A stretch of 64,000 nucleotides of DNA from NCBI GenBank assembly GCA_903813345.2, contig CAIIXF020000003.1, positions 607,621 through 671,620 of the forward strand. Direction: 5' to 3'. Positions within the stretch are counted from its first letter, which is position 1, and each line of letters starts with the position of its first letter. This DNA is from Owenia fusiformis. Taxonomy: Eukaryota; Annelida; Polychaeta; Sabellida; Oweniidae. Position numbers and translations under genes: made by a program. Under the pieces are notes generated by a model that saw only the letters and a list, made by a program, of their open reading frames with translations, made no database searches and was not told the origin of the DNA. Below, in pieces: positions 14,591 to 63,347 of the stretch.

Positions 14591-14662
14591 AACATATGAA
14601 ATCTATTGCGGTACTTTCCGTCCTCCTTTAATAAAACTATTTCAGTATTTTCTTTGACTCAC

Positions 14663-16304: not shown

Positions 16305-16369
16305 TAATGTTTGATTATAGTCTGTTTGATGATTCTATTAATACCCCCCCTGGCCAAAATTTCTTTCAA

Positions 16370-17716: not shown

Positions 17717-17769
17717 CTGCAACATAAAGATATACAGTATATATATAATATATAATATGGCACTTGCCC

Positions 17770-22480: not shown

Positions 22481-22654
22481 ATGATTGGATATTAACAACC
22501 CATTATCCAGTGTTTAATTTTAACTCAGTTGTGTACAATTGCGATATGAACTGAAGGAGAATCAAGGATTACTGGTAAAAAATCAATATTTTTTTTCATT
22601 TCTACAAATTTAAATTTACGATCGGACAGTTACTACCACAGTCAATCAATCATC

Positions 22655-23234: not shown

Positions 23235-23259
23235 ATGAGACAGACTGTTATTTCAAGGA

Positions 23260-24865: not shown

Positions 24866-25203
24866 AATTTCCTTTAAATACGCCCCATCCTGCTATTTCA
24901 CAGTCCCATCGCTCCCATTCGCTATGTCTAATGCAAGTCTCTTCTGCAGGACCTCTACATCTACTAGTTGGAAGGTCACATGGTCTTACATTTCGTTTTG
25001 TGAAGTCCAGTGGTGTATCGAGTTTTATCATTGCGATGTCTTTTCTTAATGGGTTGCCGTATGAATCAGTTGCATAATCCTCGTGAATTATGACACTGGA
25101 TACTTGTCTAGTTTGACCGTCGTCTTTATGACCTTTTGTAGTGCTATGGGGTTTCAGTAAGCCAGCAGTCACGTTCAAATTTTTCAGATCACATTTCGAG
25201 TCC
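24866..25203 (-). CDS. Exon 3: catalytic Asp region of the protease
   Basis: It encodes VTAGLLKPHSTTKGHKDDGQ, VSSVIIHEDYATDSYGNP, RKDIAMIKLDTPLDF, VRPCDLP and EIAGWGVFKGN. D-I-A-M-I-K-L contains the catalytic Asp102 and A-G-W-G is the conserved turn. The acceptor is AATTTGGAG (phase 2, completing TT|G) and the donor AATT followed by GTAAGT (phase 1). The first Met-looking position in this frame is not a start; the frame continues from exon 2. Confidence 0.9.
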
Positions 25204-25865
25204 CTCCAAATTCAAGATTAAGTAATCAAATATTGATCTTTATTCCACAGTTACCATGATATTCATAAGATAACATGTCAAAACAAAAACTGTAATTTTG
25301 TAATCAGTGGTAAAATATGATAGTTTTGACAAATTTTCGCCATAGCATACGGTGTTTTAGCCATGACATACTGCGCCGTATTCTATGAATTAAGGATTTT
25401 TGCTAATTCAGTCTCAAAACGAGGCTAAGTGTCAACATCGTCGGATCATTTGGAAAATTCGAATTAAATCACTTAATTTCCGACGATTCTGATGATGACT
25501 TTAATTATGGAATAAAAACAACATCCTATGATTTACTCGTGATATGATTTTAATCCACTCATGGATATTGATATCTGCACTCTCTCGCCACGCTCGCTCG
25601 TGCAGATATCATATCCATTCGTGGATAAAAATCATATCACTCAAAAATCATAGGATATCCTCTATATATCTTTTTAACATATCGTTATGTTGATTCACGG
25701 ATATACATCGATGTAAAATTGCTAGTAGGTGTACAAAAAGTGATATCAATAGGGTAATGGATCGTTGTCGAAATTGGGTTCGTGGACGTAATATGAACGA
25801 CTTTACAAAAACGTATAATCAAAAGAAGATTAGAATATAAGTAGTATAAAAGATAAACTTCTTAC
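25204..25865. repeat. Intron 2 with a palindromic MITE-like block (about 25,510-25,665)
   Basis: CATCCTATGATTT, GTGATATGATTTTAATCCAC and TGATATCTGCAC are repeated in inverse order around a TCTCGCCACGCTCGCTCG centre. Related sequence is at 2,793-2,875 and 35,571-35,650. Confidence 0.7.
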
Positions 25866-26253
25866 AAAAACTTGAAGTCCTCCGAACAGCAATGGCCTCC
25901 TTGACAAACACAATGCGCTGCAGTCATAATCCATACGTCTGTAAGAATGATGCCGCCGCAGAAGTGACCAGTTTCTTCGCTTCCATATTGAACACTTTTT
26001 GATATGGAGACAATATAAGAATACATTGAAATGTTATACACGCGTTGACCGCCAGTCGATCTTCCCCCATCGAATGTTATTAAACAACCAGCGCATTGTT
26101 CTTCTTCAGATGGTTGTTGGCCGAAACATCTGTCACTCGGTTGTATGCTTTCCCTATCGTCCATGCATATCTTACGACGTTCTCTCCAACCACACCGTGC
26201 CATCATACCAGGACATCGGCTCCAAGGGCCCCACGCCAGCCAATGCGGGACAT
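25866..26253 (-). CDS. Exon 2: TSP1 repeat plus catalytic His region
   Basis: It encodes WLAWGPWSRCPGMMARCGWR, ERRKICMDD and CFGQQPSEEEQCAGC, a six-Cys TSP1 repeat (W-x-x-W-x-x-W spacing, G-x-x-R-R). It continues with the protease start, VYNISMYSYIVSISK, and HFCGGIILTDVWIMTAAHCV, with catalytic His57 in TAAHC. The residues after the presumed activating Arg read V-Y-N-I instead of I-V-G-G, so zymogen activation would be atypical. An extra C-V-C-Q-G-G-H-C-C insert follows the His. Entry is phase 1 (G|AT) and exit phase 2. Confidence 0.92.
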
Positions 26254-26663
26254 CTTGATATAGTGATAAGAGCAAAAACGTATTACGGTGTTAAAAATTG
26301 CCAAGATTTTACGATCGCACCATTCGTTTTATTAGGAAAGTGATTGGTACCTTTAAAAGGGTTATTTTATGGTACGCCCGTGGTATTCTATGATCATGCA
26401 TGTTGTTAACAATATTTTCAATGGAATTAAGATTTTACGGATATTTACTATGATTTTCGATGGTGATGAGTGGTTTGGTAATTTATTTAGCTTAGTTTAA
26501 CTGGACAAGTCATGCTTTTTACCATATCGCATTAGATGATCTTTAGTCACTGGGATGTTGTGATAATATATACTGATAAAAGGGTTAATGATGCTAGATA
26601 CTATCTACAAAGCAAGAGTGGGTTTGTTGATGCGGTTAAAATACAAATTTCATATGAACGTAC

Positions 26664-30923: not shown

Positions 30924-31409
30924 ATTTGCAAATAATTGCAAGGCATATTGTTTTCAAGTCGTGATGCACCTGTTTCAATATAAACGATACTCGTCAACAA
31001 ATAATGACTACCTTGGTTCCCATATCGTTACATTCAAACATTTAGTATAATTAATTGTGACCATTATCGTAAGGTCCATGCTATCCTGTCAATGTCTAAA
31101 TCGTTTGTTCCGTAATTACCACAGTTAAAAAATTAATGACCAATTTGATAGATATGAACCATTTAGTTCATGCCATGAAGTTGAAAATTTATCCAGACCG
31201 AAATGACGGTAAAATCTCAATAAATCATCAGTAAATGAACGGAAAGTAGTTAAAACAGAGCAAAAATCGTGAATTTTGACAATGTTGTCAGTACATCGTC
31301 GAAAGGAAGACAAAGAGAGGTTAACATTAAGAATAATACATACCATATTTTATCTTCTACTATTTGCAAATTCGTGTGAAAAGTTTATTTCATGTTTTTA
31401 AAACGTTAA
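30924..31409. other. Non-coding stretch between elements
   Basis: No element ends or exons recognised. A 73-codon minus-strand frame at 31,125-31,346 lacks any known motif. Confidence 0.4.
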
Positions 31410-31994
31410 GGTACCACGAGACAAATTGTATGTACACAGTATGGATAGGACGTATGTTAAGGTTGATGCTAATGGAGTTGAAATTGTCAAAAATCATTTA
31501 GACTTCTTGATTAAACACAAGATCAAACCAACAGAGAAACAAGAACATTTGCCTAAAGTCTTTTGGATACCTAAGTTACATAAAGACCCTTATAAATATA
31601 GATTTATTGCTGGTTCTAGGGTTTGTTCTACTAAAAAGCTTTCTGGGCTATTAACTAGGCGTCTCCGAGCTGGAGTCTTACTGTAATGCCATTTTTAGAA
31701 ATTCTGGGGTTTTATAACCATATGTTGATCCTTAAAAATTCGAAGGACCTTTTATCTTTTGATCAACCGAATTATTCAAAAGTTAAATGTATTTCCACAT
31801 GGAATTTTTCAACACTACACATCAATTCCCAATAACAAATTCACCCCGGTTTAAAAGAAATTATGGTCCCCTTTCCTTACGACCATTACTGGCCCTGACT
31901 GTGTATGAATAATTAGGCAAAATAATTGTAATTAGGTCACCATATAAATCAATAGAAAGTAGGACCAAAATTTGATAGGACCACCTACCCTATT

Positions 31995-32514
31995 ACACTG
32001 GAATAGCCTGACTACGGTAAAGTCAGATACCGTCGTCACAAATGGCGGACATAACCGTCGCTTCAATTAGATTTTAATGAACTATGTATTTAATAGAGCA
32101 CCTAGACTAAATTCCTTTGGAACAACAATCAATAAAAATGTCTTAATACCCATTGTACAGTTAATAAAATTCTACCATCGAAATAAAGTTTTTAATTTAA
32201 CCGATCAAAATGAGATACGGGCCAACGGACACAGTAATAACCTTATGCTGTTGTCTTCCTAAATTACTCAAATTCAGATTCCGTTGTCATTGACGATATC
32301 GAAGACGCTATATTGTGGCGATTCTAGACCCAATTTGATCGAAAATGGGATTTCATCTGATACATTATCACAAGAGCTTAATGCATGCGCAGAATTAGCG
32401 ACGGTAAAATCTCATGAAACGAGGAGCAAGTGATTAAACAGTTGAAGCGACGGTTATGTCCGCCATTTGTGACAACGGCATCTGACTTTACCGTAGTCAG
32501 GTTATTTCGGTGTA
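31995..32514. mobile_element. MITE with about 60-bp near-perfect TIRs inside the RT relic
   Basis: CCTGACTACGGTAAAGTCAG at 32,008 and CTGACTTTACCGTAGTCAGG ending at 32,501 belong to 60-bp arms with about two mismatches. Weaker complementarity extends outwards to TTACAC/GTGTAA. It interrupts the RT frame between the FSTL motif and K-L-K-E-E. About 150 bp of extra sequence on its left side is unexplained. Confidence 0.8.
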
Positions 32515-33365
32515 AAATTGAAAGAGGAAATATTTAGTATCATTAAAAACACAATGAAAGGTAGTAGATTTAAATTTGTAAATTGTAATTCAAATAGGGC
32601 TTTCTTTTCGAGTGATCAACATGAAAAGTATATTTCTTTTACTGCAATACAACTTTGTGAGGTTTTAGGCTTTTTGATTGATAACATTTATGTAATGTTT
32701 GGGAATACTGTTTTACGTCAAAATATAGGAATACCAATGGGGACAGATTGTGCTCCTCTTTTGGCAGACCTTTTTCTATTCTCGTATGAATATAAGTTTA
32801 TAGCAAAAGATGATGAAAGATAAGACAAAATTCCACATAGTTAAACTTTTTAGTAAAACAGATAGGTATAAAGATGACCTATTGAGTTTGAACAACCCTG
32901 GATTTGAAGATTTTGTAAATGAGATATACCCTTCCGAGTTAGAGTTAAAAAAGACCAATGAATCGAACATGAATGCGCCTTATCTTGATCTTCTCATTAA
33001 CACACTGTGGCTAGTCGATCAATGTGGATGCAGTCATGTATATGCAATGTTTCGTGGGTTCTCGCGTACATTATAGGGAATGGGGTCGTTGAAAAAATAT
33101 GACAGACAATCGAGGTAAGTGATCTCAGAGTTTCTACTTAACATATTGACTTGAAATCTTGCATACATATTCAATATACATAGTATGACAATGTGTGAAA
33201 GTTTCAGCTAGCATATTCCTGTTATAGGGAAGATATTTGAACAACATTTCGTAAACGTCAACATATATGTATCAAATGGATTCAACTATGTATCATTTGG
33301 ATTCAGAACGGTAACAAATGGATGCTATAATAAATTATGCTTTTATCATGATGATTTATTTACAG

Positions 33366-39778: not shown

Positions 39779-40460
39779 CACCAAAACGTGTCACATCACA
39801 ATTCATTGTTGGTGCCATTTTGAATCTTAATTTTGTTCTGTCAATCATCGGCAAAGCATGTCTCGGTGCGTCTGGGGTAGAATTCTTAGGAAGGTCAGGC
39901 CGGGCAGGAATACCAATGGGGTCACTTTTTGAAAAATTCCAGGGCTCACATTTAACAATGACAACTTTTGCCCAAAAGCACATGTACACTGCTCAAAATG
40001 TAGAAAAATTGCTACGGGCCTGAATCTCACCCCCATGCATTCAGTTACATTACTGACATTCTTCTTTGTGGAAATTGATATGTGTATATCCTGCCACCCC
40101 TATAAAATAATGGACTTGCCCACATGCCGTGGTCTCTTTGATCCACTTGTAAAATATATATAACCAAAAAATGGTGACATCTATAGCACGAAATTTACCT
40201 TGAAAACGTCCCCTCCTTAAAATTCCCACCAACATTAATTCGTGTGACATATTTAAGGCAGATGAAATTAGTAAATTGAGCTACTCAAATGAATAACTGA
40301 TCAAACGAGTGAATCGAATCGACTTAAATTAGTACATGATAACAGCAAACTCGATCAACAGTACTCATTTTTTGTCATGTATTCCTTCCAGTATGATGAA
40401 TGATTTTCATCGATCAATAACACATGTAATGCCTACTATATTCATTTAATAATTCTTTCA
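39779..40460. other. Non-coding stretch
   Basis: Overlapping frames of 60-75 codons lie on both strands at 39,760-40,040 without motifs. Nothing supported. Confidence 0.4.
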
Positions 40461-40461
40461 T

Positions 40462-40765
40462 TACGTCATTGGCTGTTCTCATTAGCAAGTAACCAATCAG
40501 CGCAGTGAACATAATTGTAAAGGAGTAAATGAAGGTGGAACTTAGAAAAGCACATTATCATTATATGAATAAGTTGGGAATACTGAACAATTTCATATAT
40601 TCGAAGGAGTAAGCAGACAGAGAACGACTACAGCATACAAACAATTAATGAGATAAACGTTATTAAATACATACGGCACTACATTTGAATAAAAAAGAAC
40701 GAGATAAACATAAAAGGGTAGCTACAGTTAGACAGTTAACGCACGATTAACAATCTAAACGGAAA
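40462..40765 (+). promoter_or_regulatory. Promoter/5' leader block, unit 1
   Basis: It starts TTCATTACGTCATTGGCTG, then AACCAATCAGCGCAGTGAA (CCAAT box), GGAGTAAATGAAGG in the TATA position, and a leader ending TTAACAATCTAAACGG before the ATG. The same order recurs at 43,176, 47,166, 48,990 and 50,655, which is what marks it as functional sequence. Confidence 0.7.
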
Positions 40766-40841
40766 ATGTCGAGTCTTTGGATATTCACACTCCTCGGGTG
40801 CTTGTTGTTTATTTCTGCAACACAAGCTCAAGTAAGCACAA
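40766..40841 (+). CDS. Signal-peptide first exon, unit 1
   Basis: ATG to the donor ACAA followed by GTAAGT. It encodes MSSLWIFTLLGCLLFISATQ then AQVST: a hydrophobic signal peptide with probable cleavage near T-Q-A-Q. It ends in phase 1 (A|), fitting exon 2 at 52,252. An in-frame earlier GTAAGC would give phase 0 and a quick stop in exon 2, so it is not the donor. Confidence 0.75.
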
Positions 40842-41204
40842 GTAAGTACATATTGTTATATTTGTATTTAATGTCACTCTTGTATTTTCTAATACTAAGA
40901 ATATATGACTCTTAATCTCTTGCTTATTATTTGAAAACAAAGTATTTATGATTCTTATCGAGAATCCAGTGCATCTGAATAAACGTGAACCAATAATGCA
41001 AAAATCCCCACTGTCCTATGCAAATGTGCTTCAATTTAGTTTATAATGAACTAGAGATATACGTCCTTAAAACGCATGACCTTCCATCCAATATCCATTT
41101 CCTACAACGTTTTAGCTTCTTGCACTTTATTTTATTATTCCATCCATGCTAATTATGTCTTAGTATTTGAAACGAATTTAGACTTGTTCTGCAATAAACT
41201 AATA

Positions 41205-42265
41205 TTTCTTTGTCTAAGGGACTTTTGCGTTACGGCGTAGTCGAAGGTTACGGACATTATCCCAATCCATGTACTATTCACTTAATTTACAAATCCACCA
41301 TAAACAAACATTCAAGCATACAGCATTTGTCTAAGAACCTAATGCGGTACGACGTAGTCGAAGGTGACGGGCATTGTCTGATCCACTATTCACTTCAATT
41401 ACAAATCCACTAGTAACAAACATTCAAGCATAGAGGATTTGTCTAAGAACCTACTGCGTTACGACGTAGTCGAAGGTGACGGGCATTTTCCTAATCGAAT
41501 ATTCACTTCATTTACAAATCATTATATTAACAAACATTCAAGCATACAGGATTTGTCTAAGAACCTACTGCGTTACGACGTAGTCGAAGGTGACGGGCAT
41601 TTTCCTAATCGAATATTCACTTCATTTACAAATCATTATATTAACAAACATTCAAGCATACAGGATTTGTCTAAGAACCTAATTCGTTACGACGTAGTCG
41701 AAGGTGACGGGCATTGTCTAATCCACTATTCACTTCAATTACAAATCCACCATAAACAAACATTCAAGCATACAGGATTTGTCTAAGAACCTACTACGTT
41801 ACGACGTAGTCGAAGGTGACGGGCATTTTCCTAATCGAATATTCACTTCATTTACAAATCAAACAAACATTCAAGCATACAGGAGTTGTCTAAGGACCTA
41901 ATGCGTTACAACGTAGTCGAAGGTTACGGGCATTTTCCCAATCCACTATTCACTTCATTTACGAATCCACTAAAACAAACATTCAAGCATACAGGATTTG
42001 TCTAAGGATCTACTGTGTTACGACGTAGTAGAAGGTTACGGGCATTTTCCCAATCTACTAATATCTTCATTTACGAATCCACTAAAACAAACATTCAAGC
42101 ATACAGGATTTGTCTAAGAACCTACTGCGTTACGACGTAGTCAAAGGTGACGGGCACTGTCCTAATCCAATATTCACTTCATTTACAACCCATTATAAAC
42201 AAACATTCAAGCATACAGGATTTGTGTAAGGACCTAATGCTTTACGACATCATCGTATAACCATC
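41205..42265. repeat. Tandem satellite, 105-114-bp unit, about 10 copies
   Basis: The unit contains CAAACATTCAAGCATACAGG, ATTTGTCTAAGAACCTACTG, CGTTACGACGTAGTCGAAGG and TGACGGGCATTTTCC. Perfect-period stretches of 114 bp are divisible by three, which keeps frames open over several units. It lies in the intron after the unit-1 first exon. Confidence 0.9.
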
Positions 42266-43170
42266 GTAAACATACATACATCTCAGAGTAGGATACTTTT
42301 CCAGGAACCTTATTATCTAATTACAATTAATTTATACCTTTATACTCAATTGGCCAAGGAGAAAGTACAAAATGAGAGAACTAATCCACAGAGTTTTAAT
42401 AAGAACGTGTATCTTAACCTTCCTATTATTTCATAATAATACAAAATAAAGCAAACGTTAAGATTAATTTTACAAAATATTACTGTAATTATAATGGCCG
42501 CATATACACCCAATGCAGACAGAGCCTGTGGGAAATATTTGGTGCGGCAGAAATGTGCGTTTGGTGTGGAGGTTAATGATCATTCTTGAATTTTAATATT
42601 GGATATTTCATACGTCACTTATGGGACAATTCATATCATATCATGTCAATCATGTCAACGGCGCATATGGGTATAATTTGAAGTCCCGAAACGGCTTAGT
42701 TTCATAAATATCTCAAATTTAATAGCTATTAGAAAACTGAACCCTGATTATTCGGAGGTCATTATAACACTTCAATGATAAACGCAATGCAACATGGTTT
42801 ATATGCGCAAACTGTTTAACCAAAAATTAAAAAGTCAATAGATACATTTAATATAGTGAGTCTACCCTGTATAATCATAATCATTAAAGAACAACAGCAT
42901 ATCAGAATATTTTTATACTTTGTGTAAAGTGTAAGTGTAATGTTATGATTTAATTTAATTACTATGGCCGAACTCGCTTATAGTGGGTGTCAAATTAAAT
43001 TATCCCTCCACAAGTAGACGATCAAGGCATCTAGTATTTTAAAAGGGGAATGCATTAAAAATACAATTATTCAAACGGCATCAGATATTTTAGCAGTAAA
43101 CAGATTAGTGTAGTTGATATTTTCATGGTTTTTAGAAGATCTAGTGAGTCACGCAATTGACGATGTTAAT
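42266..43170. other. Non-coding spacer between units
   Basis: No exon recognised. It resembles in outline the spacers after the other units (for example the AGATTTTAGAAAA-type text and notes of CTGATGATTCA found throughout 42.7-52.1 kb), suggesting that whole units were duplicated. Confidence 0.5.
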
Positions 43171-43175
43171 TCATT

Positions 43176-43455
43176 TCATTACGCCATTGGCTGTTCTTAT
43201 TAGCAAACAACCAATCAGCGCAGTGAAAATTATTGTAGAGGGGTAAATAAACACTGGAGAACGTCACATAATCATACTTATATGAATAAGCTGCGAATCC
43301 TAAACAATTCCACTTTATTCCGAGAAGAAAGCAAATCTAGAACACCTGCAGCATAAAGACAGTAGCAAAAGACAATATTAATTAAAATACACTTTATTAA
43401 ATACAAAGGCGTAACAATCCGAAATCACAAGATACCCATAAAATCTACAGTTAGA
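43176..43455 (+). promoter_or_regulatory. Promoter block without exon (orphan unit)
   Basis: TTCATTACGCCATTGGCTG, CAACCAATCAGCGCAGTGAA and GTAGAGGGGTAAATAAACAC are in the same order as in unit 1. The leader follows up to CTACAGTTAGACAGTTATC, but the ATG/signal-peptide exon and its donor are missing and the text jumps into intron-like sequence. It is a unit that lost its exon by deletion. Confidence 0.7.
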
Positions 43456-44589
43456 CAGTTATCACAAAAATTGAATTTTTGCTTTTTGCACTTTTATTTT
43501 ATGTTATAATTTTGTTATGTAAACCAGTGTATAGCCCTACTTGTTCTGCATTAAACATAATAATTTTGTAAACTTCAACAGTAGCACTGGCACTACTTTG
43601 AGCTCAATACCTTTCGTTATCGCAGTTATTTTTAAGCACACTAATATTATCCTATCGTATCATCATTAATTCGTTGTAAAAGTCATTTAATTATTCAGAG
43701 GTCTTCATAGGTCATTCAGGTGATAGGTCACTTCAACGAGGATATTTTTTATGCATTTAACATTTCCAAGTTATCGTTATCTGGACCTATGAATCATCAG
43801 TTCTCATATTTTGGAAATCTATGAAAATATCATGCACATTAATATGTTTGTTTTCGAAATAACTCATGGCTTTTAGGTTATTGTTTTTAATACCATTACA
43901 TTTAAAATGTGAAGTGCCTCGATCTACCACGTCATTATTTGCAATTCTGTGTAATGGAGTTGTAGTATTAATTGACACCGCAGGGTTAGTTCGATATGGC
44001 TCCTATTATGTAAGATATGAAGCTACATTAGTATGTAAATTTTTGAAATAACCATTACCATTACGTTTAAAATGCTTCAATCTACACGCCATAATATTCT
44101 GTGATTTCTGTATTATAGCAGGGTTGATTATAGGCCTTGAAATTTTTCTCATTCTTGTGACTGGCAGTCGTTGTAAGATTTTTGTAATTAGTTGCCTTTT
44201 GTCATGTTACTGTTTTTTACTGTTTTTAACTAGTTAGTTTAGTTTTAGTTTAAAATAGTTTATTTTTGTGTCACTGATATTACAATATACATATAAAATA
44301 CATAATAAAAACAACATTTTGTAACATCACCAGCCGGTGCCGACTTATGAGACACAGTATACATTAGATCTGAGTGTCACCCATTACTACCCCCAATGGG
44401 CAGCTTGGGTCAACATTCATAAAGACAGAGACAAAAAATGTCCCTGGTAAAAATTTATACATTATTAACCAATGATATAAATTCAGTCTGGTTAATCAGT
44501 TTGGCATAAATAAGCAGTTCATGATATTGTCAATCATTATATTAAATACATATATTGCACCTAATGTGATATGAATATTGCATAATAAA
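43456..44589. other. Non-coding spacer
   Basis: Contains unit-type spacer text (GTTTTCGAAATAACTCATGG at 43,851) related to the 49.6-50.6 kb tandem array. No exon. Confidence 0.5.
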
Positions 44590-44905
44590 TACATTTATCC
44601 TATGCCAAGTAGAGTTTTAGGGAGATAAGTTGGTAAGATATATCCCGTATCCTGATTTTGAGGTTTCCATATCCAGAACCTCCATATCTCCCGCCATATC
44701 TCCCGCTTCGGTGCATATCTTCCCGCTTCCGGTGCATATCTTCCCGCTTCCGGTAATGCAATAAAATGACTTGATTTGTTTATTTTTACACCTTGTACTA
44801 TTGAAATGGCCGTATGCCCCTGAAAACTCTACTTGGTATAGGATAAAGCAGTTATGTACGGTCGGTTTGGATATGGAGTTCATCCCTCGTGAGATATACA
44901 ACGGT
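44590..44905. repeat. Third copy of the GAAGCGGGAAGATATG dispersed repeat
   Basis: TATCCTATGCCAAGTAGAGT through GGTAATGCAATAAAATGAC matches 61,720-61,880 and the inverse of 13,320-13,470. The far end is replaced by different sequence. Confidence 0.8.
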
Positions 44906-44925
44906 CCCTCAGGTAGATATGCGTA

Positions 44926-45087
44926 TAACTTACAGTTTGATATTTCTAAATTTGTATAGTTAATCTTTATTATTAAATGTCACGACAATAAATGAAATAA
45001 TATTGTTAACTTACAGTTTGATATTTCAAAATTTGTATAGTTAATCTTTATTATTAAATGTCACGACAATAAATGAAATAATATTGT
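44926..45087. repeat. 81-bp near-exact tandem duplication
   Basis: TAACTTACAGTTTGATATTT to ATGAAATAATATTGT is present twice back to back (second start 45,007) with one substitution. A recent event. Confidence 0.95.
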
Positions 45088-46079
45088 GACAAAGCATTTA
45101 TTTATGACCTAAGAGTATAATAATTCCATGGATTGCATATGTATAGTAAAATGTTCACTGAACATTATTTATTATGGTCTGAATAAAAATTCAACGTAAG
45201 GTAAACTTCAAGCTTAGCTTTATGGGAGTCAAGGGATAAAGCCAGCACTATCATCATCCAGAATTGCAAATAATGATCGTATACGATCGAGGCACTCAGT
45301 TAAGAAAATGGTATTTATACAATGATCTAAAAATGGTTCAATTCTTTTTCAACAATAAACATATCAATAAGTTTATATTTTAAAGCTTTTAGAAAATTGA
45401 GCACTGATGATTCAGATGGTCGGATCATTTTAACATTTCAATGGTAGATGCATACGGCGTTTCTGCCTTGAAGTGACCTACAACTCCAATAACTGTAAGA
45501 GGACAAATGGTAAACTGTATCAGAATATGTATACTTTGAGTATCGTTTCAAGGTGGCGGTGATTTCACTTAATTACTGAAGCCACACTCACTTATAATGG
45601 GTGCTAAATCACTCGGATTATTCATCTACGAATAGGCGATCAAGGCACTGAACATTTCAGAGTGAACTGTATTAAAAAGACATGACATATTTTAACGATA
45701 AAGGGATTATTAATGCAATTGATATTTTCATAGATTTTAGAAAATTGAACACTGATGATTCAGAGTTCCGGTATATCATAACATTGAAATGTTAAATGCA
45801 CAGAACATATCCGTGTTGAAGTGACATATACCCTGAATGACCTAGGATGGCCTTTGGACATTAAAATGACTTTTCCAATGGAATTACATTGCACCATAGT
45901 ATTTTCTCATTGCATTATCAACATGTTTTCTCATAATACCTGGAGGTTACTTACAATATGAAATGAATTATTTATGATGATGATCAATGCGATGATATTA
46001 CATTTTAAACAGACTATTAATCTTTAGATTTGGTTCGGCTATACAATATAATAATACATTTTTAGTGATTGTAATATTA
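45088..46079. other. Unit-type spacer
   Basis: Contains repeated words ATTTTAGAAAATTGA and TGATGATTCAGA, seen across the array. No exon. Confidence 0.45.
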
Positions 46080-46755
46080 GTGACAAAATGGATAAATGTG
46101 TGACTCAAATGAATGAATACTGTCGTATAAAATGGGCAAATGTGTGACTCAAATAAATGAATACAGTCGGATAAAATGGGTAAATGAGTGACTCAAAGGA
46201 ATGAATATAGTCGGATAAAATGGGTAAATGTGTGACTCAAATGAATGAATACAGTCGGGTAAAATGGGTAAATGTGTGACTCAAATGAATGAATACAGTA
46301 GGATAAAATTGGTAAATGCGTGACTCAAATGAATGAATATAGTCGGATGAAATGGATAAAATGGATAAATGAGTGACTCAAATGAATGAATATAGTCGGA
46401 TAAAATGGGTAAAATCGATAAATGAGTGACTGGAATGAATGAATACAGTCGGATAAATTAGGCTAAATGATGAGTGACTCAAATGAATGAATACAGTCAG
46501 ATGAAATGGGTAAATGAGTGACTCAAATGAATGAATATAGTCGGATAAAATGGGCAAATGAGTGATTCCAATGAATGAATATAGTCGGGTAAAATTGGGT
46601 AAATGATTGATTCAAATGAATGAATACAGTCGGATAAAATGGATAGATGAGTGACTCATGAATGAATACAGTCGGGTAAAATTGGTAAATGAGTGACTCA
46701 AATGAATGAATATAGTCGGATAAAATGAATAAATGAGTGACTCAAATGAGTATAT
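46080..46755. repeat. Tandem minisatellite, about 45-50-bp unit, about 14 copies
   Basis: The unit is AAATGAGTGACTCAAATGAA followed by TGAATACAGTCGGATAAAAT. It is regular but has no unique spacers. Confidence 0.92.
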
Positions 46756-47165
46756 GAATGACCAGAGCTAGTAACTGAGTCACGCAAGTGACGATGGTTA
46801 CAACAATCTTTTATGAATACTAGTATCTACAACTATTTTTGATGTTGAGTATTAGCTATCAATTTTTTCAATTTCTCTTCAACATATGTTGTAATGACTT
46901 CAGTATGAATGAAATGTCCCTTGGTGTTCTGGTCCTGGATTGTAATATTGGTTCTCGATTGGAGGAGGGAGGGGTATGTTAGAAATTGTTTCTTTTCATG
47001 TTAGATCATGGTTTTGGGATTTTCTTATGACAGATTTAGACTTACAGTTTGCTTTTCATGTTGGGTTTCTTTTAAGTTTTTAGTCACCTTTTCCTTTGGC
47101 ATTTGCGCTTATATATTCGACCAATAGTATTCACGCATTGCCTACAAGATTCCTTCAATCATTCC

Positions 47166-47474
47166 TTTCATTACGCCATTAGGTGTTTCCATTAGCAAAC
47201 CAATCAGCACAGTGAAAATTATTGTATTGCGGAAACTGAGAGGGCCACATAATCATAATTATATTAATAGCCAACGAACACTAAACAATTCCACTTTATT
47301 CCGAGGAGTAAGTAGACCAATATCAAATGCAGCATATGGAGACAGTAGCAATAAGCATTTAATAAAAATAAACTTTATTAAATATACGGAAGACATAAGA
47401 TTTGAATTCGAAATAACAAGATAGACATAAAAGAGTGCCTATAATTATCGGACGATTATCAATTAAAACATAAA
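47166..47474 (+). promoter_or_regulatory. Promoter/leader block, unit 2
   Basis: TTCATTACGCCATTAGGTG, AAACCAATCAGCACAGTGAA and ATTATTGTATTGCGG. The TATA-like AAATAAA seen in other units is missing. The leader has AACAATTCCACTTTATTCCG and ends AATTAAAACATAAA before the ATG. Confidence 0.65.
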
Positions 47475-47547
47475 ATGGTGAGCCTTCATTTATTTGGACT
47501 GTTGTGGTGCTTGTTTGTTTCTATAACACAAGCTCAAGTGAGCACCA
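47475..47547 (+). CDS. Signal-peptide first exon, unit 2
   Basis: MVSLHLFGLLWCLFVSITQ then AQVST, with donor ACCA followed by GTAAGT, phase 1. One codon shorter than unit 1. Confidence 0.75.
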
Positions 47548-48989
47548 GTAAGTACATATAGTTATATTTGTATTTAACTTCACTTTTATTTTAATATTAT
47601 TGATATATGACTTCCCCATCTCTTGCTGAACATTTTGAACATAACATGTTCTGGAGAAAATGAATATTTCTTCTATTTTTAATTGTTTTTCAAATTCAAT
47701 GCAGTTTGTTAGCACTTGGTACAAAGGCCAATAATACGAAACTCTCCACTCTCTCATGGGCACATGTGCTTAGATTTTGACAATAAACGAACTGATTTTG
47801 CGTCGAAGCATTTATTTATGACCTAAGAGTATACTATTGCATGTAGTTTCCATTAATGAATTCACCTCGTACAAGCATAATTATGATTTAACAAGAGAGT
47901 CATATCTTCTTTCAAGCATTATATCAGAATATTCATATTTTTGTACAATGTGGCAACATGTTAACTTAACATTTTATTATTCCGTATGGTCTAATTATAA
48001 TTCAAGACAAGGCAAACTTCAAGCTCAACTTAACATACTATTAATTATTAGGTTCTCATACAATGGACGTCAAATTCGACTATCCCTAAGCTGGAATTCT
48101 CGTTTAGAATTTTATGGCATATTGCCAGCTCTATCATTTTTCAGAATTGCAAATGAAGATCGTATGAAATCGAGGCACTCACTTAAATTAATAGTATTTA
48201 ACAGACAATAATATATTAATGATATTTTTATAGATTTTAGAAAATTGATCACTTATGATTCATATCAACATAACATTCATTTAAATGTTAAATGCAGAGA
48301 ACATATTCGTCTTGAAATGACCTACACCCCAATTTACTTATGAAGGTCTATTAAAATGACGTTTGCAACGGGTAAATAATGATACGATAGAATTGCATTA
48401 ATAGTCTAATACGGTTTATGGGCGCAAACTGTTTTACCAAAAATGCAAAAAAATATTATAACGTATCTACCCTGTATAATCATAATTATAATCCAACAAA
48501 TTGCTGTCTCCTAAACTTTTATATCTATAATAGCTATTATAACTTGAATATTTATACTTTGTGTAAAGTTTCTAGCGCAACACATAGAGGTTATGTTAAA
48601 TGCAGAGAGCCAATTCGTTTTTAAATGACATATACATTGAAAGACCTAAGAACATTTATGGACATTACAATGACTTTTTCAATAGAATCATATTGTACCA
48701 ATTTCATGGCACAGGTCGACAGAAGAAAATACTTTAGATTTGGTTTAGTTATACAATGATATATTTATTAAGTTATTTACCTTTCAAGTGTCCAAAAATA
48801 GATTATTATCCAAAAATACCACGGTAAATGTTAAACACAATAGACAGAATTTACCTATGAATGTCGTCAACATATTAATATACATTGAACAGTTCACTTC
48901 GAGGAGGATGAGTTTGTGCATTTCCATGTTATGGTAATCAGGAACTCTGGGTCGTCAGAGCCCAATTTTTAAAGGCTATGAAATTGTCA
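47548..48989. other. Spacer between units 2 and 3
   Basis: Intron-like and spacer text. A 124-codon plus-strand frame at 47,837-48,211 has no recognisable motif and overlaps unit-type repeats. Not supported as a gene. Confidence 0.4.
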
Positions 48990-49170
48990 TCTACATTAAA
49001 ATGTATTGTAGAGGGGTAAATAAAGGCAGAACGAAATTGAATTAACATTATATGAATAAGCTGGGAATACTAAAGACAGTAGCAATAAACAATAAACAAG
49101 GCAAAACAATATAGACATAAAGGATTGGCTACTTAGGCATTTATCGCACGGTTAACAATTTAAACAAAAA
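48990..49170 (+). promoter_or_regulatory. Promoter/leader block, unit 3 (5'-truncated)
   Basis: GTAGAGGGGTAAATAAAGGC and the leader up to TTTAAACAAAAA are kept. The CCAAT-box part found in the other units is missing here. Confidence 0.55.
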
Positions 49171-49243
49171 ATGGCGAGTCTTCTGGTATTTGGATTCTTG
49201 TGGTGCTTGTTAATGTCCATAACACAAGCTCAAGTAAGCACAA
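49171..49243 (+). pseudogene. Signal-peptide first exon, unit 3, donor destroyed
   Basis: MASLLVFGFLWCLLMSITQ then AQVST. The expected donor ACAA-GTAAGT reads ACAA-ATAAGA, so normal splicing is lost. Together with the truncated promoter this unit is probably dead. Confidence 0.7.
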
Positions 49244-49619
49244 ATAAGAACATTTATTTATTTTTGTTAATTTCACTCAAAAACCCTGACCTTGCATCCA
49301 GTATCCCTTTTACTTTTAGGTTGTTTAACTTCATGTTATAATTTTCTACATTCAAATTGATGCAGAATTGTTAAAGATAATACTTTTGAAAAATTCGTCA
49401 GAAGTATCGGTGTATTTTTGAATTAATAATTATTTGCAATTAATACATCCTATCATCATTAATTCGTTGAAAAAGTCATTAAAATGCTCAAAGTTCTTCT
49501 ATGGTCATTCAGGGGATAGGTCACTTCAAAGTTTTATGCATTTAACATTTCCAAGTTATGGTGATCTTAAACTCTGTGTCATCAGGGCTCAATTTTCGAA
49601 TTGCTGTGGAATATCATCG

Positions 49620-50560
49620 ACATTAATATGTTTATTTTCGAAAGAATTTATGGCTTTTTGGTAATTGAATTCAATAACATTTTCAAGTTATGGCGATTTG
49701 GAACTCTGAATCATCTGTGCTAAGTATTCTAAAGGCTATGGAAATATCATCTACATTAACGTGTTTATTTTCGAAAGAACTCGTGGCTTTTTGGTAATTG
49801 TATTTAACAACATTTTCAAGTTATGGCGATCTAGAGCCCTGAATCATCAGTGCTAAGTATTCTAAAGGCTATGGAAATATAATCTACATTAACGTGTTTA
49901 TTTTCGAAATAACTCGTGTCTTTTAGGTAATTGCATATTATTCTTTAACTTTAAAATGTTATTTGCTTTGACGTGCTTCGACATGATTTTAAATTCTGTA
50001 CGATGCCAAAGTTAAAGTATTTAATGAGATAATCTAATTTGAGCCTTATAATATGTTAAAAGGTTTCATTTTATGTTATATGATTTTAATTATAATGGTC
50101 TAAATGAAACTTCAAATCAGACAGCAACTTTTGCTAATACATCCTAGATCATTCAGGGTATAGATCTCCTCAGGAGGATATGTTTTATGCATTAAACAGT
50201 CGCAAGTTATGGTTTTCTAGAACTCTGAATCATCAGTGCTCATGTTTTCAAATGTTATCGAAATATAATCTACATTAAAGTGTTTATTTTCGGAATAACT
50301 CATGGCTTTTTGGTAATTGTACATAATAACATTTCCAACTTGTGGTTTTCTGGAACTCTGAATCATCAGTGTTGAATTTCGAAAGACTATTAAAATATCA
50401 TCAACAATAAAGTGTTTATTTTCGAAGTTACTCATGTTTTTAGTAATTGTATATAATAATATTTCTAGGTTATTTTTTCTTGAACTCTGAATCATCAGTG
50501 CTCAGTTTTCGAAAGGCTATGACAATATCATCTACATTAGTATGTTCATTTTCAAAACAA
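49620..50560. repeat. Tandem array, about 130-bp unit, about 7 copies
   Basis: The unit contains GGCTATGGAAATATCATCTA, TTTATTTTCGAAAGAACTCG, GGCTTTTTGGTAATTGTA and CTCTGAATCATCAGTGCT. Isolated copies are at 43.79-43.93 kb. Confidence 0.85.
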
Positions 50561-50654
50561 CCCATGTCTTTTTGGTAAATATATAATACTCTTAGCATAT
50601 CGAGGCAATTGTATAATTGCAGATTTTAAGTTTAAAATTATAGGGATGATCCGA

Positions 50655-50967
50655 TGTGGCTGTTCTTAATAGCTAGCAACCAATCAGCTCAGTAAAAAAA
50701 TTGTAGAGGAGTATATAAAGGCAGAACTAAGAAAGCTACATTATCATTAAATAACTAAGCTTGCAATACTAGACAATTCCGTTTTATTCCAAAGAGTAAC
50801 GAGACAGAGAACAACTGCAGCATAATAAGACAATAGTAATACGCATTTAATAAAATAAACTTTATTACACATACGGAAGAAATACATTTGAATCCGAAAT
50901 AACAAGATCAACATAAAAGCGTGGCTATAGTTGGGCAGTTATAGCACGATTAACAATTTAAACAAAA
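50655..50967 (+). promoter_or_regulatory. Promoter/leader block, unit 4 (best TATA)
   Basis: GCAACCAATCAGCTCAGT (CCAAT at 50,680) and TATATAAAG at 50,712-50,720 are about 32 bp apart. The leader contains CAATTCCGTTTTATTCC and ends TTTAAACAAAA before ATGGCG. It is the most complete promoter in the array and the closest to exon 2. Confidence 0.8.
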
Positions 50968-51043
50968 ATGGCGGGTCTTCATTTATTTGGACTGTTGTTG
51001 TGCTTGTTATTTATTTCTATAACACAAGCTCAAGTAAGCATCA
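50968..51043 (+). CDS. Signal-peptide first exon, unit 4 (right TINAG-like gene exon 1)
   Basis: MAGLHLFGLLLCLLFISITQ then AQVSI, with donor ATCA followed by GTAAGT, phase 1. It is joined by phase to exon 2 (A|AT gives Asn). Probable product: secreted TINAG-like protein. Confidence 0.8.
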
Positions 51044-52251
51044 GTAAGTACATATAGTTATATCTGTATTTAATTTCACTTTTCTCATCTTTTCTAATAT
51101 TTAGAATAAATATATCATATATTTTATTCATAACAAATGGAAAGTACGATTTTCCCCGAAAATTTGAAAGTGGGGTTACATATACGTACAAGGTTTGACT
51201 AGGATGGCAGCATGAGCACCTCACCTTTTAGCTTATGTATATAAGATCGGAGATTCTTTATATCACAGGTTGACTTTTCATAAAGACAAAGTTGTGCGAT
51301 TGAATAATAGAGTTTAGTTTTCCAAAATGTTGTGGAATTGTTTTCTTTGCGAATTAGCCAAGATTTAAAGCTATTATATGCAAACGCTGAAATCATTAGA
51401 TCAATTACACTTTCATCACCTCTTTTTAAAATAATATTATTGCCTATGACAGTACTTTTCCAAGATATTTTAATTTTGAATAAATATACATTCGCATCTC
51501 TTTTATTTGATCGCACTCTAAGATGATATGTTTCAAATTGTTTTCAATCATACAAACATTGAATAATTGTGATCTATTCTTTGGAAGAATATCATGGAAC
51601 ATTTTATGTTAAAGTAAGCTAATTTAGAATATATGAGTTCCCTTATATTTTGTGTAATATTTAAGATATTCATAATTCGTTTCTTGTTTTGGGGATTTTA
51701 GACTTTTATCACACGAGTACACGATCGAGCCACTTGGTGTTTTATTCCCTAAACTTTTATATCATTGATTTTCTTGAACTATTATACAGAATATTCATAC
51801 TTTGTCTATATGTTCTAGCGTCAACGTCATAGAATATTAATCATTTAAGTTGCATATATAGGGATTCAAATTGGGTTGCCCACGTCGTGTCATTTAAAAT
51901 GTCAATACATCTTCTCAACTCTGTAAGCGTACTGAATTGGATATCATGTTGCAGCAGATCGAGGCACTTCATATTCTAAAGAGAATTTCAATTACTTAAA
52001 AGTTATTTCAAAAGTAAACATCAACATCAATGTAGATGATATTTCCGTAGTCTTTTGAAAATTGAGCACTGATGATTCACAATTTCATTGCTTCGAAATA
52101 TTAAATGCCTACAGCATATCCGTCTTGAAGTGACATAAACCGTTAATGTTATTGGAAGAACAATATACATTTAAATTACTTTATTACAATATTGATGAAA
52201 TGTTGTATTATTTTATCCCGGCGGTTCAGTAACAGGTTTCCTTTTTTCCAG
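51044..52251. other. Intron 1 of the right TINAG-like gene
   Basis: AT-rich. Frames at 51,199-51,526 on both strands have no motif. Acceptor TTTTTTCCAG at 52,251. Confidence 0.5.
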
Positions 52252-52318
52252 ATGACTGTAAGGTTGATGGCAAAGTATATCGTCCTGGGAGCATAAGGAA
52301 GGTCTACTGCCAGGAATG
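52252..52318 (+). CDS. Right TINAG-like exon 2 (Cys module)
   Basis: It encodes DCKVDGKVYRPGSIRKVYCQ then E, and TG| that becomes Cys with exon 3. D-C-x-x-x-G-x-x-Y-x-x-G-x-x-x-x-x-x-C-x-x-C-x-C is the VWC-like Cys module that precedes the C1 domain in TINAG proteins. It enters in phase 1 and leaves in phase 2, donor GAATG followed by GTAAGT. No counterpart was found for the left copy. Confidence 0.8.
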
Positions 52319-52654: not shown

Positions 52655-53690
52655 AGGGTCAAACTAGTTCGAGTGACCATTGTAGTTTCATTGTCAAACC
52701 CATTCATTTAGATAACAGTTCATTTGACCATTGCAGTTTCATGTCAAAACCATTGTTTTAGACAACAGTTCAAGTGACCATTGCTGTTTCATTGTCAAAA
52801 CCATTGCTTTAGACAACAGTTCAAGTGACCATTCCAGTCTCATTGTCAAACCCATTCATTTAGATAACAGTTCAAGTGACCATTGCTGTTTCATTGTCAA
52901 AACAATTGTTTTAGACAACAGTTCAAGTGACCATTGGTTTCGACAACAGTTCAAGTGACCATTGCTTTCGACAACAATTCAAGTGACCATTGCAGTTTCA
53001 TTGGCAGTTTCATTGGCATTGTCAAACCCATTCATTTAGCCAACAGTTCAAGTGACCATTGCAGTCTCATTGTCAAAACCATTTCTTTAGACAACAGTTC
53101 AAGTGACCATTCCAGTTTCATTGTCAAACCCATTCATTTAGATAACAGTTCAAGTGACCATTGCGATTTCATTGTCAAAAGCATTGCTTTAGACAACAGT
53201 TCAAGTGACCATTGCAGTTTCATTGCCAAAACCATTGCTTTAGACTACAGTTCAAGTGACCATTGCTTTCGACAACAGTTCAAGTGACCTTTGCTTTCGA
53301 CAACAGTTCAAGTTACCATTACAGTTTCATTGCCAAACCCATTGCTTTAGACAACAGTTTAAGTGACCATTGCAGTTTCATTGCCAAAACCATTGCTTTA
53401 GACTACAGATCAAGTGACCATTGCTTTCGACAACAGTTCAAGTGACCATTGCTTTCGACAACAGTTTAAGTGACCATTGCTTTCGACAACAGTTCAAGTG
53501 ACCATTGCAGTTTCATTGCCAAAACCATTGCTTTAGACAACATCTCAAGTGACCATTGCAGTTTCATTGTCAAATCCATTGCTTTAGACAACAGTTTAAG
53601 TTACTATTACAGTTTCATTGCCAAAACCATTGCTTTAGACAACAGTTTAAGTGACCATTGCAGTTTCATTGTCAAAACCATTTGCATTTG
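52655..53690. repeat. Minisatellite in intron 2
   Basis: Units combine AACAGTTCAAGTGACCATTG and CAGTTTCATTGTCAAAACCA with TTGCTTTAGAC; period about 51-57 bp with some 28-bp short forms. Frames through it (S-S-D-H-C-S-F) are by-products. Confidence 0.92.
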
Positions 53691-55119
53691 ACGGCATTCC
53701 ATGGTCTAAAACATTGAATTTGACGATATTCCATCGTTTACATCAAGTTTAAATGCATTTGACTATATTTTACCAAAAAACAGCACATATGTTACAGAAG
53801 AACTGCTGCCCATGATTTGCAATGATGTCATTTGACGGTCATGATCGACCATTGAATTCAATGGTAAATTATATACCCGAGTGAAAAAAACTGAAAAGTC
53901 TTCTATTTAAGGAGTTAAGAAGTCTGTTGACCCAATGGAAAAAATGGTACCATTGGAAACTATAATACTGGCCTATAACATGTGATAGGTGTTAAGGACA
54001 TCAACTTCAATTGAAATCGATATTATTTCCTATATCTACAAATTACTACCTTTCCAACGATGCCAAAATGGGCAGAGATAGGGTCAATCGACTTGTTAAG
54101 TTCATACAATGTCTGTTTTCCCACTCAGGTAATATTGTTAATCTGTATCTAAAAAAACGTTTCATTGTCTTATCAGTTAATTGTCATCCAATACAGTGAA
54201 ACTTTGATCACCAGGTTTATGGCTTTGCATTTAATGGTAGTCATAATTAAACCTATTGCATTTGATTGTTTATTGGGGTATGACCGTGCTATTTAATGCA
54301 CAAGTTTAAATATTAAATACCAGAAACCATTAGATGCCATGGTAAATGAGAGTTATTATTTTATGTCCATGGTAATTAATGGTCATGTTTGACAGTGAAG
54401 TATCATAAAATGCCAAAGTCAACCGACAATTATATGTTTGGCACCGATCCCTGGTAGTTAATATACATGTTTGACAGTGAATAACAAGTTGACAAATAAT
54501 GATTTTATAACCATTTAAACATTTTCTATTATTAAAGAAGCACTTGCTGATTAACATATAATTAACTTTTCAAACAGATGAAACGATTCTAATATTGACT
54601 TAAAGAGATACATACTGATTATACATATTAGGTTTATTCAAATAATACTTCTTGCTCTATTTAAGAAGAAAATGCTGGTGTGTAACCTCATAAAGAGGGC
54701 CATGCTGGTGTAATTCCTTATGTTGACATATGACAAAGCAGCACATAGCACCACCAGTTAAAGAGCATGGCAAGATTTAAATTCCTACAACTTTAGAATT
54801 TGGCTGTAGGTTGAAATTTTAATGAAGTGATGCTCTTAAACTGGCGGTTCTATTTGCCACTTTTCTATTTTATTTCAAAATTTAAGAAATAAGAAACAAA
54901 TGCTGCTTCATTTTTAAAATTGTAATGTGCAATATCCATTTGCAACAAATATCCTTATATCACTCCCAAACTATCACATATTATATTTTACCAATCACAA
55001 TATACAATTAGAGGAGGTGTAGGTAACATAAGAAGGCATTCTTTAATATCATACTTTAATATCAGTAATAATTTGACAATTAATAATCAAATTGAAAGTG
55101 GACTAATATCCATATCTTC
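53691..55119. other. Intron 2, distal part
   Basis: Nothing coding. ATGGTAAATG/CCATGG words recur. Confidence 0.4.
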
Positions 55120-55640
55120 ATGCTGCAGTATATTTGTAGAAGACATGGACAATATCGACTATTACGTGTGGGATTGTAATGGTATAGATTTTCTGATAAG
55201 GGACTTCATAATAGTTGAAAGTGGACTAATGTCTTCATATTGAAGCCTATGTGTAGAAGACTTGGACAATGCCGACTATTACGTGTGGGAGTGTAATGGT
55301 ATAGATTTTCTGATTGGGAATAGATAATAATTGAAAGTGGACTAAAATCCATATCTGCATTTGCAGCATATGTGTAGAAAACTTGAACAATGTCAACCAG
55401 TACATGTGGGATTATGAAGGTTTGGATTGTCTCATCAGGGACAATGCTGACCATTGCATCTGGGAGTGTAATGGTGTAGATTGTCTGTATATGTTTATGT
55501 TGCAGCATTTGTATAGAAGACATGGACAATGACGACCACTATGTGTGGGAATGCGAAAGTTCGGATTAATCTCGATCATAGACTGTGTGAATGAGGGCAA
55601 TAAAGGGCAAGTGCCATATTATATATACTGTATATGTTTA
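55120..55640 (+). repeat. Tandem array of decayed exon-3 copies (right)
   Basis: Five diverged copies start near 55,127, 55,240, 55,367, 55,440 and 55,506. Each preserves V-E-D-M-D-N ... Y-V-W-D-C-N-G-I-D (for example DNADHCIWECNGVDCL). They contain stops or lack the donor (GGGCAAGTGCC in copy 5), so only the sixth copy can serve as an internal exon. Confidence 0.8.
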
Positions 55641-55648: not shown

Positions 55649-55759
55649 CATTTGTATAGAAGACATCGAAAATGATGACCACTATGTGTGGGAATGTGAA
55701 GGTCTGGATTGTCTCATCAGGGCCTCGATCATAAACCATGTGAATGAGGGCAATAAAGG
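55649..55759 (+). CDS. Right TINAG-like exon 3
   Basis: The acceptor is TATGTTGCAG and the donor AAAGG followed by GTCAGT. It encodes ICIEDIENDDHYVWECEG and LDCLIRASIINHVNEGNKG. It completes Y-C-Q-E-C-I-C with exon 2 and leads into W-K-A-G of exon 4 by GG|G. 111 bp, identical in length and phase to the left copy. Confidence 0.85.
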
Positions 55760-57376: not shown

Positions 57377-57609
57377 GTGGAAAGCTGGTAGCTATTCCTT
57401 TCTACAGGATAAAAGCTTGACATTCGGAATGAAGTACAAATTGGGGACACTATTGCCATCAAGTGATGCAATACCCATAAGGCAAAGCCGGGTGAGCGCA
57501 GACAAAACCTTCCCAAGGAAATATGACTTGCGCAAGGAATCGAAGGGGCATGTGTCTAAAATCCGAGACCAAGGGGATTGTGCCTCATCCTGGGCAATTA
57601 GTACAACTG
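57377..57609 (+). CDS. Right TINAG-like exon 4 (intact)
   Basis: It encodes WKAGSYSFLQDKSLTFGMKY, KLGTLLPSSDAIPIRQSRVS, KYDLRKESKGHVSKIRDQGD and CASSWAISTT. The active-site Cys is replaced by Ser (C-A-S-S-W), as in TINAG proteins, which bind basement membrane instead of cleaving. Phases 2 in, 1 out. It has no stop, unlike the left copy. Confidence 0.93.
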
Positions 57610-61343: not shown

Positions 61344-61494
61344 ATGTTACCTCGGATCGGCTTAAAATGAAAATGACTAGCGGAATCAAGGTAGATTTCT
61401 CCCCACAACAACTTATCTCTTGCATTGGGGACAAGCAACTTGGATGTACAGGGGGACACTTGGATAGCGCATGGGAGTACATGAGATTACAAGG
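61344..61494 (+). CDS. Right TINAG-like exon 5
   Basis: It encodes DVTSDRLKMKMTSGIKVDFS, PQQLISCIGDKQLGCTGGHL and DSAWEYMRLQG. The acceptor is TTTTTCAG and the donor CAAGG followed by GTATGC. Phases 1 in, 2 out; 151 bp as in the left copy. Confidence 0.92.
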
Positions 61495-63190: not shown

Positions 63191-63347
63191 AGTTGCAGAT
63201 GAAGAATGCTACCCTTATACCAGTGGCTTATACAGCTCTAAGAAAACATGCCAAGTAGAAAGATCATCATCAAGATCTAAGAATGGTGTATGTTCCAAGA
63301 AAAACAAAATCTACAAAATGGATAAACCATACAGAATGCCTAACAAT
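63191..63347 (+). CDS. Right TINAG-like exon 6 (gene runs off the window)
   Basis: It encodes VADEECYPYTSGLYSSKK, CQVERSSSRSKNGVC and YKMDKPYRMPNN. The acceptor is ATTATTTTAG and the donor CAAT followed by GTGAGT, phase 0 out. Exons 7-9 with the His and Asn regions should lie beyond 64,000. Confidence 0.92.

Follow-up and report, generated by a model that had tools for sequence, protein, structure and literature searches.

Tandem signal-peptide exons before a TINAG-like gene

When several signal-peptide exons lie in a row before one gene, are they alternative beginnings of that gene or the remains of others? The question is raised by a 64,000-nucleotide stretch of the Owenia fusiformis genome (the window; contig C3, 607621-671620, here locus A), in which four leader reading frames and a row of promoter-like blocks precede the second exon of a TINAG-like gene. 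The genome searched comprises 498 Mb in 525 contigs. The same array stands before three sister genes (loci B, C and D), which makes it probable that the array works as a set of alternative promoters. Judged from sequence, the likelier reading is that tandem alternative promoters, each with a signal-peptide first exon, feed one TINAG-type gene, and that units 1, 3 and 5 would be the working members.

Leader exons and the common exon 2

The four leaders of the original prediction were correctly placed. Their ATGs lie at 40766, 47475, 49171 and 50968, upstream of exon 2, and each frame encodes a short hydrophobic peptide with the C-terminal end TQAQVS(T/I). The peptides resemble signal peptides, with a presumed cleavage site read from the sequence rather than from a predictor. 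The leaders and the exon that follows them are listed here (exon/intron boundary shown by a slash).

40766..40841, + strand: leader exon 1, coding part, MSSLWIFTLLGCLLFISATQAQVST plus 1 nt, phase 1, donor A/GTAAGT; intact at A, B, C and D
47475..47547, + strand: leader exon 3, coding part, MVSLHLFGLLWCLFVSITQAQVST plus 1 nt, phase 1, donor A/GTAAGT; intact at A, B, C and D
49171..49243, + strand: leader 4, MASLLVFGFLWCLLMSITQAQVST, donor GT replaced by AT
50968..51043, + strand: leader exon 5, coding part, MAGLHLFGLLLCLLFISITQAQVSI plus 1 nt, phase 1, donor A/GTAAGT; intact at A, B, C and D
52252..52318, + strand: common exon 2, (N)DCKVDGKVYRPGSIRKVYCQE(C), phase 1 in and phase 2 out; one per locus

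The exon at 52252 had been named as the only compatible downstream exon, and this was borne out. It has a polypyrimidine/CAG acceptor and a GTAAGT donor, its phase fits, and searches of the spacers for exon 2 gave chance-like matches only among those listed. All leaders had been said to end in phase 1, which is true of those at 40766, 47475 and 50968. A phase-1 donor matching the exon 2 acceptor is found in three of the four leaders at A and in 13 of the 16 at A to D, the failures being leader 4 of A, B and D. The donor of leader 4 reads AT at A and B, is deleted (8 nt) at D and is intact at C. With GT changed to AT at 49171, that donor is unusable, so canonical splicing is open to three of the four leaders at A. 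Leader 4 is not supported as a working member, its donor being lost at three of the four loci.

Promoter-like blocks

Each leader belongs to a unit that begins with a promoter-like block, and one further block stands without a leader. The units of the window are as follows (UTR, untranslated region; CRE, cAMP response element).

40424..41056, + strand: unit 1, promoter-like block, presumed 5' UTR, leader and intron start; CRE-like TTACGTCA, ATTGG, and CCAATCAGC at 40491-40501
43169..43462, + strand: unit 2, promoter-like block with no leader exon, leaderless in B and C too; CCAATCAGC at 43209-43219
47117..47640, + strand: unit 3, promoter-like block, leader and intron start; CCAATCAGC at 47198-47208
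49003..49278, + strand: unit 4, shortened block without CCAATCAGC, leader and intron start
50657..51111, + strand: unit 5, block, presumed 5' UTR, leader and intron start; CCAATCAGC at 50678-50688 and TATATAAAGG near 50710

The word AACCAATCAGC has exactly four exact matches in the window, at 40491, 43209, 47198 and 50678, each of them at a block. Allowing up to one mismatch gives five matches against 1.23 +/- 1.16 expected, a number reached by 1 of 100 shuffles of the window. The original prediction described four first exons and five blocks in which a CCAAT word, a TATA-like word and a leader with signal peptide recur in one order. The CCAAT part stands for four of the five, since CCAATCAGC is present in all but the block before 49171, which lacks it at A and in its counterparts at B, C and D (0/4). 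The block at 43169-43462 is not supported as a leader unit. Across the four loci CCAATCAG occurs at -259 to -291 in all 12 copies of units 1, 3 and 5; it is also present at the single-leader loci F and G and is missing from all four copies of unit 4.

The TATA-like word does not recur in every block. The form TATAAAGG, at about -256 to -253 beside the CCAAT word, is clear in unit 5 only, where it is found at all four loci; the remaining units have a weak form or none. This is one ground for the chief competing reading, in which the proximal unit 5, with TATATAAAGG, is alone the working promoter and first exon, and the upstream units are by-products of local duplication that have not yet decayed or are kept, for example, as enhancers. 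The locus does duplicate readily, as seen from its intron repeats, the promoter-only copies in B and C and the extra copies of exon 3. We regard this reading as rather unlikely on the conservation evidence given below.

Spacers between the units

Two further explanations make predictions about the DNA between the leaders. One, put forward in the original prediction as the alternative, is that the units descend from complete tandem genes whose later exons were lost. The presence of several gene copies on the same chromosome, with loci F and G lying downstream of A at distances of up to about 85 kb, is in keeping with it. The other is that each leader is joined to a private, unrelated exon in its own spacer to give separate small secreted peptides. 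The spacers of A to D were searched for exon 2 by blastn and tblastn and for exons 2-9 by tblastn, over all but some 30 kb between unit 5 and exon 2 of B; in those 30 kb the genome-wide DNA search with exon 2 gave no match.

No second exon hidden in a spacer was found for any leader by these searches. Between the leaders and 52252, exon 2 gave chance-like matches only: one of 20 nt by blastn (E 1.6) and, by tblastn, E values of 8 and above among the matches listed. Exons 2-9 gave no tblastn match at E <= 1 in the same part of A. In the arrays and first introns of A to D together they gave two chance-like matches at E <= 1, both in D (E 0.37 and 0.98), and one of these contains a stop. No convincing relic of exons 2-9 was thus found in the spacers searched at the four loci. 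Spacers of A measure about 1.4-3.7 kb, less than the roughly 14 kb taken up by the gene body. The spacers also carry the family's intron 1 repeats of about 130 nt, as expected if only the 5' end was duplicated, so that duplication probably took in the promoter together with exon 1 and some of intron 1. On the DNA searched, the loss of later exons from whole genes is therefore disfavoured, and we consider it very unlikely.

As for private exons, stop-free stretches common to the spacers of A, B and C reach 60 codons, and 35 of at least 30 codons lie on the + strand (a raw count, made without a shuffled control). Such stretches are many, they occur in every frame, some run over the leaders themselves and none stands out. 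All intact leaders also hold the phase that fits exon 2. The chance that the leaders serve private exons is accordingly very slim.

The repeats of about 130 nt form a tandem row in intron 1.

49447..50600, + strand: tandem repeats of about 130 nt, intron 1

Further copies, some inverted, lie at 43654-43975, 45300-45896, 48209-48700 and 52026-52205 of the window. A genome search finds relatives of these repeats only at the loci of this gene family, E, F and G included; they are possible enhancer elements. Dispersal of the unit by a transposon was considered and is not supported, as the searches place the unit at the four C3 loci and at one site on C4, and the repeats at family loci only. The intron that follows unit 1 holds tandem repeats of 112-114 nt (41209-42248), and a 134-codon open frame among them (41382-41786) looks accidental.

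Paralogous loci

The array is present at four loci of one contig. The DNA of unit 5 matches at least 20 places in the genome, at least 19 of them in four clusters on C3 (A to D) and one on C4 (E). Exon 2 is found in seven places, one each at A to E and at two more loci, F and G.

C3 near 2.43-2.45 Mb, - strand: locus B
C3 near 3.53-3.54 Mb, + strand: locus C
C3 near 4.40-4.42 Mb, - strand: locus D
C3, 706 and 739 kb: loci F and G

A search with a leader profile detects 16 leaders at A to D, four per locus, and one leader fragment in D. Loci E, F and G have one leader each in the approximately 5.7, 10 and 13.8 kb of upstream DNA searched. A search for full genes with these leaders, which had been proposed as a check, thus finds three more arrays before genes and three genes with single leaders. 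At A to D exon 2 follows downstream of the array on the same strand, and the units are collinear. Collinear units at three other loci place the array far beyond chance. Extra promoter-only copies precede unit 1, two of them in B and one in C.

The row of units might also be an artefact of assembly, produced by collapsed or mis-ordered haplotypes, and the genome does contain several closely similar loci. The four loci show one order of units but are clearly diverged and differ in their insertions, and an artefact is extremely improbable.

In a tree of the noncoding flanks the leaders group by position and not by locus, with ultrafast bootstrap (UFBoot) values of 100 for groups 3, 4 and 5 and 98 for group 1. 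This grouping indicates that the array predates its copying to the four loci. D appears to have been the first locus to split. A to C are about 90-99% identical in most aligned windows, spacers included.

The gene bodies do not follow the array. At exon 4 the synonymous difference between A and B, C or D is 38-48%, while that of G is 5% from B and 14% from C; G is close to B and C in this exon although its single leader is distant. Exon 2 tracks the array, with a synonymous difference of 16% between A and B and 43% between B and G (about 13 synonymous sites). When A is compared with B, C and D, exons 4 and 6 are far apart at synonymous sites, exon 5 differs mainly in protein, and exons 7-9 are closer. 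Because exon 2 tracks the array while the bodies do not, these short exons suggest that the 5' module and the gene bodies have partly different histories, which may have come about by recombination or gene conversion.

Conservation of the leaders

Leaders 1, 3 and 5 have remained intact. All 12 copies at A to D keep an open frame with a canonical donor. Over A to D, 16 of 222 sites vary in these leaders against 145 of 884 in the noncoding flanks (p = 0.00017), and over A to C the counts are 11 of 222 and 87 of 911 (p = 0.016). Relative rates are 0.52 at codon positions 1+2, 0.84 at position 3 and 1.08 in noncoding DNA. Over the whole tree, indel lengths are divisible by three for 4 of 5 indels in leaders and for 14 of 58 in noncoding DNA (p = 0.02). 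Leader 4, with 6 of 68 variable sites against 26 of 184 in its flank (p = 0.18), shows no significant constraint. The pooled pairwise ratio of nonsynonymous to synonymous differences (pN/pS) is 0.49 for unit 1, 0.41 for unit 3, 0.57 for unit 5 and 1.36 for unit 4, all from few changes. The presumed 5' UTRs of units 1, 3 and 5 contain 18 upstream ATGs against 30.5 expected, and none of 300 shuffles is as low, which also speaks for working units.

Neutral decay would rarely leave such a set. It was simulated along the flank tree in 4000 runs, with units 1, 3 and 5 simulated jointly. With unit-specific starts all 12 leaders stayed intact in 1 of 4000 runs, and in an earlier run in 0 of 4000. Variants gave 5 of 4000 without leader 1 of D (11 leaders), 1 without indels, 28 without both, 33 for A to C only (9 leaders), and 97 at half rate without leader 1 of D.

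These results bear on the reading in which unit 5 works alone. Unit 5 has the lowest leader variation (4 of 78 sites), the break in leader 4 at three of four loci agrees with upstream units being by-products, and over A to C unit 5 is significant by itself (p = 0.013) while units 1 and 3 are not. Against this, leaders 1 and 3 have stayed intact at all four loci, which is part of the outcome that is rare in the joint simulations, and over A to D variable sites are fewer in the leader than in the flank for unit 1 (p = 0.02) and for unit 3 (p = 0.03).

Several points weigh against the reading of alternative promoters that work as a set. Over A to C, neither unit 1 nor unit 3 is significant by itself (p = 0.46 and 0.15), and the 90-99% identity of these loci gives their comparison little power. 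Much of the conservation signal comes from D, whose unit 1 flank is partly replaced, inflating the flank rate of its leader 1. Parsimony assigns 10 nonsynonymous, 6 synonymous and no disruptive changes to units 1, 3 and 5, which by itself is not clearly unlike a neutral mix; the absence of disruptive changes among 17 has P = 0.10, and the two indels, both multiples of three, P = 0.06. The broken leader 4 shows that decay of a unit is possible. Units 1 and 3 have at best weak TATA-like words, CCAATCAG is missing from the single-leader gene E, and at B a distance of about 38 kb separates unit 5 from exon 2. The site counts and the ATG count also rest on related copies, which are not independent of one another.

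Proposed mode of expression

The claim that alternative promoters and leaders feed one gene is supported in part. It agrees with the single exon 2 per locus, the matching phase, the array at four loci and the conservation of leaders 1, 3 and 5 above their flanks; leader 4 and block 2 fall outside it. Under this reading one block would start transcription, and its phase-1 leader exon would be joined to the single acceptor at 52252. Leaders farther downstream would be skipped as intron, and no acceptor is seen for them in the alignment. The signal peptide would probably be cut after TQA, leaving the mature N-terminus at A as QVST-N-DC or QVSI-N-DC. With cleavage there, residue four, either T or I, would be the most that distinguishes the mature proteins at A. 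The choice of unit may then govern the time, place or level of expression and not which protein is made. Units 1, 3 and 5 would be the working members, unit 4 a decaying one and unit 2 a leaderless one. The array may have arisen through several rounds of local duplication that took in the promoter, exon 1 and the beginning of intron 1; it would then have been copied, together with exon 2, to four loci.

A broader proposal, which we offer tentatively, is that the promoter-leader units and exon 2 form a self-contained cassette that was multiplied as a block onto gene bodies of different ancestry. It would act as a switchboard of several promoters with a nearly constant mature N-terminus, and units 1, 3 and 5 would be under selection at four loci.

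Comparison with known systems

The known clusters of UGT1 type, with multiple first exons, diversify the protein. In UGT1 the variable exon 1 encodes the part with the acceptor-binding pocket, and the first exons of the clustered protocadherins (PCDH) and GCNT2 also encode functional parts of the protein. With ordinary alternative promoters and alternative 5' exons, the choice of start alters regulation and leaves the mature protein as it is. Two papers describe UGT1 (UGT1A) as tandem first exons, each with its own promoter, joined to shared downstream exons (PMC1885805, PMC3325998). The first of these also places the UGT1 acceptor-binding pocket in the N-terminal domain and names the PCDH clusters and GCNT2 among genes with multiple variable first exons or an organization like theirs (PMC1885805).

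The array resembles UGT1 in having tandem first exons before one set of constant exons, here at A, B, C and D. As to a promoter for each first exon, CCAATCAG blocks precede units 1, 3 and 5 (12/12) but not unit 4 (0/4), and the TATA-like word belongs to unit 5 only. The array differs from UGT1 in that the variable exon there encodes a large part of the enzyme, whereas here it supplies only 5' UTR and signal peptide and hardly alters the mature protein, and in that the entire array is repeated before four genes. A variable exon for a distinct part of the mature protein, typical of UGT1 and PCDH clusters, was not found, the leaders being signal-peptide-like; unlike in PCDH and GCNT2, the first exon is a leader alone. 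As with ordinary alternative promoters, the choice of start would alter regulation and not the mature protein, but here the starts are tandem duplicates with intact signal peptide and donor, in a set common to four paralogues.

The array may thus be viewed as a leader-only form of the multiple-first-exon cluster, whose plan is known from the vertebrate UGT1 and PCDH genes and which is set apart by a repeated exon that is a leader alone. Searches by title and the start of the abstract, with subscription papers largely uncovered, found no description of a leader-only first-exon array, of alternative first exons in TINAG, of alternative first exons that leave the mature protein unchanged or of duplication of promoter or first exon. 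TINAG is not named in the papers listed on mollusc and annelid cathepsin B, and among those listed on TINAG-like genes and family expansion one, on a stink bug genome (PMC7071726), has the TINAG-like name once. Clusters of the UGT1 kind diversify protein, while a leader-only array would separate the multiplication of promoters from that diversification. Four copies of the array and three single-leader relatives in one genome offer a natural experiment on the value of extra promoters. Such arrays also pose a risk for gene prediction, in which each leader may be called as a gene or dropped.

Gene body and product

The gene continues beyond exon 2, with exons 3-6 in the window and exons 7-9 past its end.

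55649..55759, + strand: exon 3, (C)ICIEDIENDDHYVWECEGLDCLIRASIINHVNEGNK(G), phase 2 on both sides
57377..57609, + strand: exon 4, start of the Peptidase_C1 domain; QGDCASSWAI, catalytic Cys replaced by Ser
61344..61494, + strand: exon 5, Peptidase_C1 domain
63191..63347, + strand: exon 6
C3 about 672554-673964, outside the window: exons 7-9

The joined product of 368 residues matches Peptidase_C1 (PF00112, E = 2.2e-60), and its best solved relatives are procathepsin B (E = 2.9e-47). The active-site Cys is Ser (CASSWA, exon 4) in all of A to G, and the stretches around the catalytic His (GYHSVRIVG) and Asn (ANSWG) are preserved in the joined product. No stop is seen in the matched body exons of A to G; exon 8 was not found in the DNA taken for C, and exon 3 of D runs off the end of the stretch searched. 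The change of Cys to Ser at the active site of a cathepsin-B-like fold is what we take to be the TINAG pattern, and the product is predicted to be a secreted, inactive cathepsin-B-like protein of TINAG type. Like TINAG and TINAGL1, it has a cathepsin-B-like C1 domain in which Ser takes the place of the catalytic Cys. Vertebrate TINAG has an N-terminal domain of the somatomedin-B type. Pfam finds no such domain here, and the N-terminal part gives only two matches at E <= 1, both falling far short of the cut-off and neither of them to somatomedin B. For this reason the protein is called TINAG-like and not TINAG.

Extra tandem copies of exon 3 occur at 55127-55607 of the window, where they look degenerate, and at B and G. 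Three copies at B and two at G have no stop; as exon 3 is in phase 2 at either end, it could be present more than once, or as alternatives, in the product there. Intron 2 contains a 51-nt minisatellite (52666-53700) that is also present at B, C and D.

Other features of the window

An inverted second gene body lies at 9201-17878 on the - strand, with exons 3-9 at 86-100% protein identity to A. No exon 2 or leader was found for it and exon 4 has a stop; a pseudogene truncated at its 5' end is the probable explanation. Beside its exon 3 copies the sequence has 500 N in a row (18001-18500). A tRNA scan of the window found none. Judged by their translations alone, open frames at 22550-23858 and 31402-33076 resemble pieces of retroelements, and those at 24831-26290 (- strand) resemble exons of a trypsin-like protease with a thrombospondin-like part.

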